Origin: Clostridia bacterium
GTDB taxonomy: Bacteria > Bacillota > DTU025
NCBI GenBank assembly: GCA_034926675.1
Contig: JAYFQW010000017.1
Coordinates: forward strand, 1 to 62,259
Length of the DNA stretch: 62,259 nt
Direction of reading: 5' to 3'
Position 1 is the stretch's first letter; each line of letters opens with the position of its first letter. The notes beneath the pieces are model-generated. The model worked only from the letters and a program-made list of their open reading frames with translations, was not told where the DNA came from and made no database searches. Positions 7,893 through 13,451 of the stretch are shown one piece after another. Position numbers and translations under genes: made by a program.

Positions 7893-9086
7893 ATGCGCGC
7901 AATCGCTTATATACACATCCCGTTCCTTTACGCCGCCGTTCATGCAAAACTCGATCCTGGCATTGCCGGCCGGCCACTTGCTGTCGTTAACAAGAATACG
8001 GTGGTTGGAGTGTCGCCGGAGCTTGCGGCAGTCGCACCCAGCGCAGCTCCTGGATGCACTCGCCGGCACGTGCGACAGTCCTGTCCGGATGCGGTCATCG
8101 TCGAATACTCCCCAGAGCTTTACGCCGAGTTCTCAAATGCCATCTTGGATATATGCGCCGATTACACCCCTTTGGTGGATCCAGATTCCATGCTGAGCGC
8201 TTTTGCCGATCTCACAGGGTGCGGAGATCCTGAAGCCATATGCCAGGCCATACTCAGCCGCGCAAGCGAAGGCGCCGGGCTTGATATCGGGGTGGGGCTC
8301 GCAGGATCACGCCTCATCGCGAAAATGGCCGTCCCCACCAAGGAATGCGCGATCATAACTCCAGGCGCGGAGGCGCAATTCCTCGCCAGAATGCCAGTAC
8401 GCTCCATATGGCCACTTTCCCTGCAAGTGCTTGATAGGCTCGAAAAGCTCGGGGTTAGAACAATTGCCCAGCTTGCCGCCATTCCAACAGGCGAGCTCAC
8501 ATCTCAACTGGGTGAAGCAGGCCTCGAGGCCCACCTTCTGTCCATGGGAATCGACAGATCGCCTGTTCGGGCAGGATACCCTCCTGAGTCTATAGAGTGT
8601 TCAGTATCATTCGAGGCGCCCGTGGGTGAATGGTCGGATATCCTCCAATGCTTGGAGGCATGTGCAGCCGAAATCGGTTCGAAACTCCGTTCATCTGCCC
8701 GTGCGGCCTCATGGATTGAGGCATCCTTGGAACCTACCGGAGGCTCCGCGGCTGTATGTACCGCCTGCATCGTTAGAAGGCATTCATTTCACACTCCGTC
8801 AAGCTCCACCACGCAGATCTCTCGGGCATTGGTTCACATCGCTACAATGGCACAGAATAGGTCGTCATCGCCGATTGCAGGTATTCGATTACGCGCAGGT
8901 AGCCTGGTCTCCCCTTCCGGAGTACAGCTTTCCATGTTCGATCCAGCATCAGCCGGCATCGGTTCGGATAGTCTCGAAGAGGCGCTGAAGTATGTGCGAA
9001 AGCGCTTCGGAATGCACAGCCTGATCACAGCGAACGCGCTTGTGCGTTCGAGGCGTGATCGGATGATCGCAGAGTCACTGCTATAA
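7893..9086 (+). CDS. imuB: ImuB-like inactive Y-family DNA polymerase
   Basis: ImuB proteins are catalytically dead Y-family polymerases that tether the mutagenic polymerase ImuC/DnaE2 to the sliding clamp. The 397-residue product aligns with the Pol IV fold, with DPGIAGRPLAVV, YSPELYAEFS, GLAGSRLIAKMA, a helix-hairpin-helix LEKLGVRTIAQLAAI and a C-terminal little-finger region. Active-site acids are lost. The usual VDMDAF near the start is IHIPFL, and the usual SIDEA is SMLSA. A clamp-binding pentapeptide QLSMF lies near residue 350. GGAGG precedes the ATG by 9 nt. It is the first gene of the SOS-boxed cassette; no imuA precedes it. Confidence 0.88.
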   Translation: MRAIAYIHIPFLYAAVHAKLDPGIAGRPLAVVNKNTVVGVSPELAAVAPSAAPGCTRRHVRQSCPDAVIVEYSPELYAEFSNAILDICADYTPLVDPDSMLSAFADLTGCGDPEAICQAILSRASEGAGLDIGVGLAGSRLIAKMAVPTKECAIITPGAEAQFLARMPVRSIWPLSLQVLDRLEKLGVRTIAQLAAIPTGELTSQLGEAGLEAHLLSMGIDRSPVRAGYPPESIECSVSFEAPVGEWSDILQCLEACAAEIGSKLRSSARAASWIEASLEPTGGSAAVCTACIVRRHSFHTPSSSTTQISRALVHIATMAQNRSSSPIAGIRLRAGSLVSPSGVQLSMFDPASAGIGSDSLEEALKYVRKRFGMHSLITANALVRSRRDRMIAESLL

Positions 9087-9121
9087 CTGATGAATTTCTT
9101 TGGCCCGGGAGGTGATCTCCA

Positions 9122-9367
9122 ATCAGCCGTCGCGTATGTGCACACGTACGGGTCGTAGAAGGCTCAACCGGCGCCCCATCAGGCTTCTACTGGGCGAATA
9201 GATGGCGCCAAGTAGCTTGTATCGTCGACCGGTGGCGCGAATGCGGAGAGTGGTGGGATGGCGATGCAGAAAGGGATTACTATCTCATAGCCTCCACGCA
9301 AGGCGGATGTTACGAGCTATGTCGGGAATCGCCAGGCGAGTGGATGCTATCGCGGGTAATTGATTGA
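9122..9367 (+). CDS. DUF6504-like small protein with non-standard start
   Basis: An open frame of 81 codons ends at TGA 9365-9367. Its second half resembles the DUF6504 domain found beside imuB/dnaE2 in other bacteria: DRWRECGEWWDGDAERDYY, then GGCYELCRESPGEW and the end LSRVID. No ATG, GTG or TTG occurs in frame between the upstream stop (TGA 9113) and the conserved part. The ATC at 9122 is well placed after GGGAGGTGATC, and a GTG at 9112 lies in another frame. Use of ATC, or a +1 shift, is inferred. It sits between imuB and dnaE2, so a role in the mutasome is likely. Confidence 0.65.
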   Translation: MSRRVCAHVRVVEGSTGAPSGFYWANRWRQVACIVDRWRECGEWWDGDAERDYYLIASTQGGCYELCRESPGEWMLSRVID

Positions 9368-9412
9368 GGCGTGAGGGCTATCGGGAATATCGCAGAAAGG
9401 CGGCAGTGCCAT

Positions 9413-12400
9413 ATGACTGGTCAGTGTAGGCGAGTGGAGGGGCCTAGCGAATTGGGGCGCTTCGTCCACCTGCATGTGCACTCCCAATACTCATTCCTCG
9501 ATGGAGCGGATACCGCAACCTCCCTCGTCTCACGTGCCGCCGCCCTCGGAATGGGCGCAATCGCCATAACAGACCACAACAACGTGAGTGCCGCGGTGGA
9601 GCTGTCTAGGGCAGCGGCGGAATTCGGCATAAGGCCGATCCACGGAGTGGAGCTAGACATAGCCTCTCATCCTAGGCTTCCCGATCCGCACGCCTACAAG
9701 GCCTCCGCGCGCTCCGCTCCTTCTCACCTAACCCTCCTCGCCCAAGGCCATGAGGGCTACTCGAACTTGTGCCGAATTATAACAGAAGCCCACCTGTCTT
9801 CGGAGCGCCACGCCGCAGAAGCTACCCTGGAGATGCTCGAAAACTACTCTCACGGCCTCATCGCACTTTCCGGGTGTAAGAGAGGGGCGATACCATCCCT
9901 CGTAGCCGCGCGCAGGTTTGATGATGCGCTCGCAGTCGCCAGGGAGCTTGTCCGCATATTCGGGCGCAGCAACCTCTACATCGAACTGCAGAACACCCTC
10001 ACCCCAGGCGCGTCCGCTGCAAACTCAACCCTGGCAGAGCTCGCGCAGCGCTTAGGCGTTGGCATAGTCGCCACGAACAACGTTCATTATGCTAATAAGG
10101 AACGTTTCCAGGTACATGATGCTCTCACATGTGTTCGCACACTCACAACCCTCGATGATATCCACCCAGAGCGACACATTAACGCGGAGAACTATCTCAA
10201 GGCGCCTGCGGAAATGGCAGATATCTTCGCCGGCTTCCCTGAGGCCATAGCGAGTTCCACGGAGATCGCAGAGAGATGTTCCCCCGGTCTAGATCTATCG
10301 CTCCAGCTGTTTCCGAAGTTCCAAGCCACGCACGGAGAGCCATCGGCCCAATGTCTGAGGCGCCTTGCCATGGAAGGCGCACTTGATCGATACGGCGCTA
10401 TCACCCCGAAGATCCAATCCAGGCTCGAGCACGAACTGAACATCATAACAGCCCTGGGCTTCGAGGACTATTTTCTTGCAGTGTGGGATGTTGCGTTATG
10501 GGCGCGCTCCCGCGGCATACGTTATGCGGGCCGCGGTTCCGCAGCCGATTCTGCAGTCGCCTATTGCCTGCGCCTTACGAATGTGGATTCCATCGCCCGC
10601 GGCCTTCTGTTCGAAAGGTTCATGAGCATTGAACGCGCTCAGAAGCCAGATATCGACATCGACTTCGATGCACGCAAGCGCGATGATGTAGCAAATTACG
10701 TGTATGAACGATACGGAAAAGGTCATGTTGCAACCGTATGCACCTTCAGTGCCTTCAGAGGAAGGTCCGCTGTTCGCGACTTTGGAAAGGCACTCGGCTT
10801 TCCAAATGAGGATATCGACAGGTTCGCGAAACTCCTCCCCCACGTCCCCGCCGATGGCATCCGCGCTGCCTTTTCCCGATATCCGGAGATGCGCGATTCA
10901 GGAATACCTGCGTGGAAATTCGAGCTTCTGCTCACGCTTGGAGAGTCTGTGGCGGGATTTCCACGGCATATCGGCACACACCTAGGCGGCGTCGTAATAT
11001 CGAGCAAACCCCTCACCTGCGCAACCCCGCTCCAAATGGCAGCGAAAGGGGTGGAGATCATCCAATTCGACAAAGATTGCATCGAGGATCTCGGCCTCAT
11101 CAAACTCGACCTCCTCTCACTCCGAACCCTCTCCGCTGTGGAGCAGGCAGTCACTACAGTGCGCGAGGCAAGCCCGGGATTCAGCTACGATTCCATCCCC
11201 CAGGATGATCTCGCCACATATCAGATGCTGAATCGCGGTGAAACTGTGGGCGCGTTTCAGCTTGAAAGCCCTGCGCAGCACGGCCTGCAGACGCGGCTAG
11301 GCGCCGATTGCATCGAAGATATCGTGGCGAGTGTAGCGCTTATCCGCCCAGGGCCAATCCAGGGTCAAATGGTCGAGCCGTTCATCGCCCGCAGAACAGG
11401 AAAGGAAAAAGTCACATACATCGACCCTCGGCTCGCCCATATACTCGACAAAACCTACGGGGTAGTCCTCTACCAGGAGCAGGTCATAGAGATCGCGACG
11501 GCCATCGCCGGATTCACGCCAGGTGAATCGGATAGGCTGCGCAAGGTGATGACTCACTTTCGCTCCGTTCGGGAGATGGAGGAGATTGGCCGCGACTTTG
11601 TGGCCAAAGCCGTAGCTCATGGCGTCGAACAGAAAACAGCTGAGGCTGTGTTCTCCTACATAGTGGGCTACGCCGGATACGGGTTCTGCGAGGCCCATGC
11701 GGCAGCATTTGCCGACACCTCTTACAAAACCGCATACATGATCCGCCATTTCCCCGCGCACTTCTACGCAGCAGTCCTGAGCGCTCAGCCCATGGGGTTC
11801 TATCCTCCCCGCACTCTCCTAGTGGAGGTGGGAAGGCGCGGCGTGAAGGTGATGCCGCTCGACATAAACCTGAGCCATGAAAGGTACACGGTGGAAAACA
11901 AGCCGGGCTCGGAAACCGGCGCCATCAGAGTAGGGCTTATGCAAGTAGGCGGGGCGCCGAAAGATGTGATCCACAGGATAATCTCCGTCCGCGATGAAGG
12001 CGGGCCTTTCCGGAGTCCGTTCGATTTTGTATGCCGTGTGGATCCTCCGCGCCCTGCACTTCAAAACCTGGCGCTCACCGGGGCGTTCGATTCCATAGCG
12101 CCAAATAGGAGGGCCATTCTGTGGCGCCTTTCCAGGATAATCGCGACCGCATCTTCCTATAAGACGATCTCCGCCTCCGATGGGATGGCCGGGCAAGAGA
12201 GACTGCTCGGGCTGGATTGTGGAGTTGGAATCGGCACAAGCCCAGATGAACAAGCAGACGGCATGGATCTGGAAGGGCTTCCCGAGGGATTTGCTGACTT
12301 CACGCCAGTGGAGAAGTTCAAATACGAGACATCTATTCTCGGATTCTGCGTTGCGCACCACGCAATGGATTTTTTCCGCCCTGCCCTGTCCCGCGCGGGA

Positions 12401-12835
12401 GTAATCACCTCGCAGGATCTCGCCGGGGCCCAGGACGGCCAGGCGGTTCAGCTAGCAGGCCTAGTAGTCCGCCCACACCGACCACCAACGAAAAGTGGGA
12501 AGATCATAGTTTTTCTCTCCCTCGAAGACGAATTCGGCCTCTCCGACGTTACTATATTTGAGAACGTTTATCAGAAGTACGGCAGCGCGATATTCGGGAG
12601 CCCCGCACTTCTCGTAGCCGGGATCGTATCTCGACGCGGCAACGGGGTATCTGTAACCGCAAGGCAGGTGCAGCCCCTGTCGAAGAACTCCATGCCGCGC
12701 CCTGATGCTTCTAGGACCCAGCCGGAGCGAACACCATCGTCTCTTTGCCGATCTCAGGCTCGAACGCCCCGTGAAGAAGGTCGCGCATTCGAGCCTCAAA
12801 ACGGCCAATGTCATCAGACGGCAGCATCACCGTGA
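9413..12835 (+). CDS. dnaE2: Error-prone DNA polymerase III alpha subunit (DnaE2/ImuC type)
   Basis: This is a C-family replicative-type polymerase of about 1140 residues. The N-terminal PHP domain begins HLHVHSQYSFLDGA. The palm has the catalytic PDIDIDFD motif, followed by RGRSAVRDFGKALG, fingers with HIGTHLGGVV and DYLGLIKLD-like DLGLIKLDLLSLRTL, then helix-hairpin-helix and an OB fold near the C-terminus. It lacks the proofreading domain of PolC. Assignment to the mutagenic ImuC group rests on its place after imuB and the DUF6504-like gene under a LexA box. ATG 9413 has AAGGCGG about 9 nt upstream; a GTG at 9371 would add 14 residues. The last 41 codons overlap yigZ on the opposite strand. 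Confidence 0.85.
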   Translation: MTGQCRRVEGPSELGRFVHLHVHSQYSFLDGADTATSLVSRAAALGMGAIAITDHNNVSAAVELSRAAAEFGIRPIHGVELDIASHPRLPDPHAYKASARSAPSHLTLLAQGHEGYSNLCRIITEAHLSSERHAAEATLEMLENYSHGLIALSGCKRGAIPSLVAARRFDDALAVARELVRIFGRSNLYIELQNTLTPGASAANSTLAELAQRLGVGIVATNNVHYANKERFQVHDALTCVRTLTTLDDIHPERHINAENYLKAPAEMADIFAGFPEAIASSTEIAERCSPGLDLSLQLFPKFQATHGEPSAQCLRRLAMEGALDRYGAITPKIQSRLEHELNIITALGFEDYFLAVWDVALWARSRGIRYAGRGSAADSAVAYCLRLTNVDSIARGLLFERFMSIERAQKPDIDIDFDARKRDDVANYVYERYGKGHVATVCTFSAFRGRSAVRDFGKALGFPNEDIDRFAKLLPHVPADGIRAAFSRYPEMRDSGIPAWKFELLLTLGESVAGFPRHIGTHLGGVVISSKPLTCATPLQMAAKGVEIIQFDKDCIEDLGLIKLDLLSLRTLSAVEQAVTTVREASPGFSYDSIPQDDLATYQMLNRGETVGAFQLESPAQHGLQTRLGADCIEDIVASVALIRPGPIQGQMVEPFIARRTGKEKVTYIDPRLAHILDKTYGVVLYQEQVIEIATAIAGFTPGESDRLRKVMTHFRSVREMEEIGRDFVAKAVAHGVEQKTAEAVFSYIVGYAGYGFCEAHAAAFADTSYKTAYMIRHFPAHFYAAVLSAQPMGFYPPRTLLVEVGRRGVKVMPLDINLSHERYTVENKPGSETGAIRVGLMQVGGAPKDVIHRIISVRDEGGPFRSPFDFVCRVDPPRPALQNLALTGAFDSIAPNRRAILWRLSRIIATASSYKTISASDGMAGQERLLGLDCGVGIGTSPDEQADGMDLEGLPEGFADFTPVEKFKYETSILGFCVAHHAMDFFRPALSRAGVITSQDLAGAQDGQAVQLAGLVVRPHRPPTKSGKIIVFLSLEDEFGLSDVTIFENVYQKYGSAIFGSPALLVAGIVSRRGNGVSVTARQVQPLSKNSMPRPDASRTQPERTPSSLCRSQARTPREEGRAFEPQNGQCHQTAASP

Positions 12836-13349
12836 TCGTCACCCGCTCCGCGTACCCGATATCCTGCACGGAGAATCCCTCGCCTGTGAGGAAGTTCTGA
12901 ACCTTCCCCAGAGCCGGGTAGTCGATGGAGAACCGAACGCTCAGCATCGGCCGCATCAATCCTATTCCAGCCGCATGGAGGCCATCGCGGGCAGCGGCGC
13001 TGTAGGCCCTCACCAGGCCTGCCGCGCCGAGGAGAACCCCGCCGAAGTAGCGGGTCACCACCACCGAACAGCAGCGGACCCCCTCACGGCGGATCACCTC
13101 GAGCACAGGACGGCCAGCGGTTCCAGATGGTTCTCCGTCATCACTTGAGCGAACGATATCGTCATTCTCGCCCACAACGAACGCATACACGTTGTGGGAA
13201 GCGTTCCAAAATCCCTTGCGGACCCGCTCAATGGCCTGCTGAGCCTGGTCTTCCGTGAAGGCTGGAAACGCAGATGCGATGAATTTGCTCTTCTTTACGA
13301 CAAGCTCCGCGCGGCCCTCTCCGCGGAGGGTCAGATATGCTTTGGCCAT
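12711..13349 (-). CDS. YigZ/IMPACT family protein
   Basis: UPF0029 proteins have an N-terminal IMPACT domain and a C-terminal DUF1949 ferredoxin-like domain. Visible here are KSKFIASAF, ASHNVYAFVVG, SDDGEPSGTAGRP and TRYFGGVLLGAAGLVRAY, then an EF-G-domain-IV-like C-terminal half. Eukaryotic relatives regulate translation through GCN1, while the bacterial role is not established. ATG 13349 follows GGGGGTG; GTG 13358 is an alternative. The 3' end overlaps the end of dnaE2, so the two genes converge through each other. The start is divergent from the alaX-type gene. Confidence 0.9.
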   Translation of the reverse strand: MAKAYLTLRGEGRAELVVKKSKFIASAFPAFTEDQAQQAIERVRKGFWNASHNVYAFVVGENDDIVRSSDDGEPSGTAGRPVLEVIRREGVRCCSVVVTRYFGGVLLGAAGLVRAYSAAARDGLHAAGIGLMRPMLSVRFSIDYPALGKVQNFLTGEGFSVQDIGYAERVTITVMLPSDDIGRFEARMRDLLHGAFEPEIGKETMVFAPAGS

Positions 13350-13451
13350 GTGCACCACCCCCGAATACTAAGAGGGAATCCAATCCCGCAGTCGAACTAA
13401 TCAGGTGTTGTGAGACTCGATCAGCACCCAAGGAGGCGAGTTCAAAACGTG

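Follow-up and report, generated by a model that had tools for sequence, protein, structure and literature searches.

A standalone ImuB-C (DUF6504) gene with a putative AUC start codon in a mutasome cassette of a Clostridia bacterium

The window, the 62,259-nucleotide stretch of DNA that was analysed, is one contig of a draft genome of a Clostridia bacterium of the DTU025 lineage (3.38 Mb in 90 contigs, 97% complete). It carries a mutasome cassette at 7893-12835, in which the genes are ordered iPolY, DUF6504 and DnaE2-type polymerase, as they are in relatives (Table 1). The first gene encodes a Y-family polymerase that has lost its catalytic acidic residues as judged by eye, with IHIPF replacing the metal-binding DxD (DMDxF) and SxDE being absent, and shares 45-50% identity with the corresponding cassette gene of relatives. 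The DnaE of the cassette is 62-66% identical to that of relatives, and its true start could be either GTG 9371 or ATG 9413. Between these two lies the DUF6504 gene, a placement that, together with its length of 81 codons and its conserved C-terminal tryptophan, identifies it as the standalone ImuB-C subunit, as defined previously (PMC3765255), of the known inactive-PolY/ImuB-C/DnaE2 cassette. The gene content and order match those of the Kyrpidia-type cassette (PMC6511836) and of the DnaE2X system (PMC12926913), whose published descriptions, in the parts consulted, make no mention of a non-canonical ImuB-C start. In modelled ImuA-ImuB-DnaE2 complexes, ImuB-C touches both DnaE2 and ImuA (PMC12926913). 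A search of solved structures (PDB) returned no relative of the DUF6504 protein.

Table 1. Position of the cassette genes and of the features around the proposed start codon
Feature	Position	Strand	Basis
Inactive Y-family polymerase (ImuB-like iPolY), 397 aa, first cassette gene	7893..9086	+	Pfam IMS, IMS_C
Extended Shine-Dalgarno GGGAGGTGATC	9107..9117	+	11 contiguous pairs with 16S tail GAUCACCUCCU, -20.6 kcal/mol
In-frame TGA stop	9113..9115	+	two codons 5' of ATC; no upstream in-frame start possible
ATC, proposed AUC start codon	9122..9124	+	aligns with ATG/GTG starts of relatives; SD ends 4 nt before
DUF6504 / standalone ImuB-C gene	9122..9367	+	81 codons plus TGA stop (9365-9367); PF20114; homology
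DnaE2-type (error-prone) DNA polymerase alpha subunit, third gene	9371..12835	+	Pfam, NCBIfam

Two further observations concern the surroundings of these genes. In the stretch 12690-12835, homology to DnaE gives out near residue 1107, but the frame has no stop at this point and continues for about 47 codons into a convergent YigZ-like gene (12711-13358, minus strand); in one relative (L309), the DnaE stop lies 37 bp before YigZ. The missing stop could reflect relaxed selection or local sequence trouble. Elsewhere in the genome there is another standalone paralog of DUF6504 (L052, G000:C42:36383-36610), which starts with ATG and lies outside any DnaE2 cassette within the surrounding DNA that was examined.

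The DUF6504 product matches the PF20114 profile with 36.2 bits, above the Pfam cut-off of 24.2, and ends in GEWMLSRVID with the conserved C-terminal tryptophan present. With regard to a possible homology of DUF6504 to the C-terminal domain of true ImuB, a bare PF20114 profile match was also obtained among the control genomes in Caulobacter, which has ImuB. The start region of the gene reads GGGAGGTGA TCT CCA ATC AGC, and the frame continues after the in-frame TGA as TCT CCA ATC AGC CGT. No ATG, GTG or TTG occurs in this frame before residue 76, and a start further downstream was rejected for this reason. The GTG at 9112 lies in a different frame that closes after 29 codons. The initial annotation had described a DUF6504-like frame with a stop at 9113 and no usual start afterwards, and a GTG at 9112 opening another frame; both the frame with its coordinates and the placement of the GTG proved correct. 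Two features of a non-canonical AUN start are thus present at the locus: no canonical start is available in frame, and an ATN codon occupies the start column of the homologs at Shine-Dalgarno (SD) spacing.

The position of the start codon follows from comparison with eight relatives, all from the same family or order. At the site that aligns without gaps to ATC 9122, six of them have ATG and two have GTG; a DTU025 relative (L017) has GTG. Because the starts of the relatives align there, ATC 9122 can be placed at the start-codon position without relying on gene finders. The second codon of these genes is AGC, ACC, GCC or AGT. Several relatives read ATG AGC at this point, one base (G to C) away from the ATC AGC of the window. 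The protein is 50-68% identical to those of the relatives, and substitutions relative to L006 are distributed as 19, 13 and 51 over codon positions 1, 2 and 3. In the protein tree the window sequence sits among the ATG and GTG sequences of its own family; its end branch measures 0.31, and the path to the sister sequences L005 and L006 about 0.25. Relatives with a normal ATG had been named in advance as evidence against an AUC start; they are present, and the AUC start is not conserved among close relatives, which refutes an AUC start of the family as a whole and leaves that of this genome standing. The comparison is best read as a change of the start codon from ATG to ATC in the lineage of the window.

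The ATC codon is preceded by an extended SD sequence, and the near-ideal ribosome site noted there initially is borne out by uninterrupted pairing of 11 bases with the 16S tail, for which the usual bacterial tail was assumed and not taken from this genome. The calculated pairing is the strongest of nine homologs, the relatives ranging from -6.1 to -16.7 kcal/mol. Within the window, the site ranks second of 45 genes, only one of the 44 others being stronger when every other gene is allowed its best candidate start. Weak start codons are known to be accompanied by strong or extended SD sequences (PMC5622118, PMC13009471, PMC5472188), and the strong SD beside ATC 9122 agrees with this pattern. 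The compensating SD may be older than the change from ATG to ATC. A short hairpin, GGAG-GUGAU-CUCC at 9108-9120, is possible over part of the SD; no special RNA structure was detected at the DUF6504 start, where folding is no stronger than that of shuffled sequence.

The same genome provides a closely matching case in infC, the gene for initiation factor IF3. The infC gene is known to start with AUU, AUC or AUA and to be autoregulated by IF3. Here it reads GGGGGTGA-AGCACT-ATC followed by GGT, with an in-frame TGA two codons 5' of the ATC, and in 10 further nearby genomes the start is ATC in nine and ATA in one, with SD and spacing kept. The two genes of this genome have in common the layout GGRGGTGA-N6-ATC, both with TGA-N6-ATC, so that they share an extended SD, the spacing from the TGA and the ATC codon. 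They differ in that infC keeps its ATC throughout the clade, whereas the DUF6504 gene does not, and in that the DUF6504 product is a DNA-repair subunit, so that any control by IF3 would not be autoregulation. The suggestion that an AUC start is used as in infC is therefore well supported. A whole-genome scan for a strong SD followed by ATH (GGNGGTGA-N5-7-ATH) gave 65 matches, 38 for ATC and 27 for ATW; the reversed patterns yielded 18 and 14, respectively. Inspection of all matches left infC and the DUF6504 gene as the only start-like ones, with a stop codon in frame 5' of the ATH, a long frame that has homologs, and no ordinary start. One further candidate (L322) was rejected, since an ATG with a separate SD follows six codons downstream.

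To place this start in a wider context, about 98 other DUF6504 genes from a draw of Bacillota genomes were read at the start column. Nearly all have ATG, GTG or TTG, the exceptions being ATC in G110, ACG in G149 (L036) and GTA in G006 (L125), the latter two in single genomes each. In the family of G110, ATC occupies the column in all eight gene-bearing members and also in one genome of a neighbouring family, giving nine genomes of six genera and two families (f57 and f123; L175-L181, L183, L189), none of which has a canonical start at this column. Families near f57 and f123 have ATG or GTG there. The junction is GGGAG-N7-ATCTCTAR in all nine genomes (in f57 written as GGGAG-N7-AUCUCUAA), in which TAR is the codon that terminates the preceding iPolY gene. 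Since all nine genomes carry ATC on the column, AUC there is no accident of one assembly. The group lies apart from the window sequence in the DUF6504 tree, and the AUC start apparently arose independently in the two lineages; how many origins there were within f57 and f123 is unsure because the tree rests on few columns and leaves many forks open. For ruvC, used as a control in the same phylum, one non-canonical start was found in 90 genes, a gene (L225, G060) that apparently starts with CTG after GGGGGAGG. The difference in the frequency of rare starts between DUF6504 and ruvC is not significant (4/97 versus 1/90, P = 0.37), so that an enrichment in DUF6504 is not claimed.

An error in base calling or in the consensus could have produced the ATC, or the assembler could have picked a minority allele, the true codon being ATG. 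The genome is a draft in 90 contigs, the ATG of relatives is a single G to C change away, and the DnaE of the cassette likewise departs from its relatives in missing the usual stop. However, by our own estimate such errors would hit about 0.002 to 0.02 start codons per 60 genes, which is improbable, while roughly 0.1 true rare starts would be expected at the rate seen in Listeria (6 in 2265 genes; PMC13068326). Nor would an error explain why the SD is strong, why the layout resembles that of infC and why ATC recurs in another lineage, and we regard this explanation as unlikely. Also unlikely in our assessment is a real but recent and useless loss of the start codon, leaving a gene in decay towards a pseudogene, or a hypomorph, without regulatory meaning. 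This reading would account for the ATG and GTG starts of all close relatives, for the somewhat long end branch of the window sequence (0.31 versus about 0.25) and for the lost DnaE stop. That branch is, however, just slightly above the path to the sisters, and the DUF6504 frame is intact with a strong third-position bias, DnaE and iPolY are of intact length, and the SD ranks near the top of those in the window. Furthermore, an AUC start with an SD yields some protein in the bacteria tested (PMC13009471, PMC5472188).

A programmed frameshift into the DUF6504 frame was considered as well, entering from GTG 9112, which overlaps the SD and opens the 29-codon frame, or from ATG 9090, which opens 22 codons overlapping the DUF6504 start; in f57, a +1 shift at CUC-UAA would yield a fused ImuB. 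A true ImuB is normally a PolY fused with ImuB-C, which lends the idea some appeal. Nevertheless, no slippery site was seen, GTG 9112 lacks a separate SD, and the iPolY stop lies 35 nt 5' of the ATC, making a fusion impossible in the window. In f57, re-pairing from CUC to UCU would be poor and the 7-nt spacing from GGGAG suits initiation. The +1 shift offered by the initial annotation as the alternative to an AUC start does not hold, as the homologous N-terminus begins at the ATC, relatives initiate on this very column with ATG or GTG, and the upstream frame is not conserved among them. A +1 shift from GTG 9112 and a fusion with iPolY were rejected on frame positions and homology, and a frameshift of any of these kinds appears highly improbable.

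The best explanation of the sequence is that the DUF6504 gene is a working gene. We consider it probable that it encodes a functional ImuB-C whose start changed from ATG to ATC and which is translated by weak, IF3-sensitive AUC initiation with the help of the extended SD. The 30S subunit would be held by this SD (GGGAGGUGAUC), and initiation with fMet-tRNA would take place on the AUC at 9122. Judging from infC, from sigR and from the Staphylococcus aureus AUU and AUA genes, initiation would be weak, with a fraction on the order of 10% of that of an AUG start expected, and would be held down by IF3. The outcome would be a low and IF3-sensitive supply of the subunit linking iPolY and DnaE2, which may be of benefit to the cell. 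A low output of the mutagenesis subunit, suggested initially as a possible purpose, would agree with what is known of such starts.

Comparable starts have been described in other bacteria. In Listeria, the ATT start of infC and the ATC start of rnhC were confirmed (PMC13068326). The rnhC gene resembles the DUF6504 gene in being a nucleic-acid maintenance gene of a Bacillota genome with an AUC start, although its start is fixed and has been confirmed by experiment. In Streptomyces, infC starts with ATC and sigR with GTC after AGGAGGTG, and both are repressed by IF3 (PMC5472188). Like the DUF6504 gene, sigR is a stress gene with a non-canonical start and a near-perfect SD, and encodes one of two partner proteins in one operon, but its start is GUC instead of AUC and has been shown by experiment. 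In S. aureus, extended SD sequences combine with AUU and AUA starts that reach about 10% of AUG (PMC13009471). The genes cvfC1 (AUU) and ccpN (AUA) share with the present gene an extended, start-proximal SD, a weak start and a small, low-expressed product, but their starts are conserved in staphylococci and their output has been measured (PMC13009471).

Rare AUN starts with a strong SD are already known, and the DUF6504 gene adds a probable further case. A gene finder limited to ATG, GTG and TTG starts would overlook or shorten it; in f57 and f123 a conserved mutasome subunit would be overlooked altogether, so that the cassettes would seem broken. Should the AUC start be used, nature would here provide an example of an initiation codon that sets the dose of an error-prone repair subunit, with infC of the same genome as a matched comparison of like layout. 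Added interest comes from the AUC start of one mutasome subunit in a second, distant lineage, and f57 and f123, in which ATC is kept across six genera, form a ready comparative set. It is tentatively possible that the small mutasome subunit has repeatedly come under AUC initiation discriminated by IF3, in the window through an infC-like extended SD and in f57 and f123 through overlap with the iPolY stop; mutagenic repair would then be tied to the IF3 level or to termination-reinitiation.
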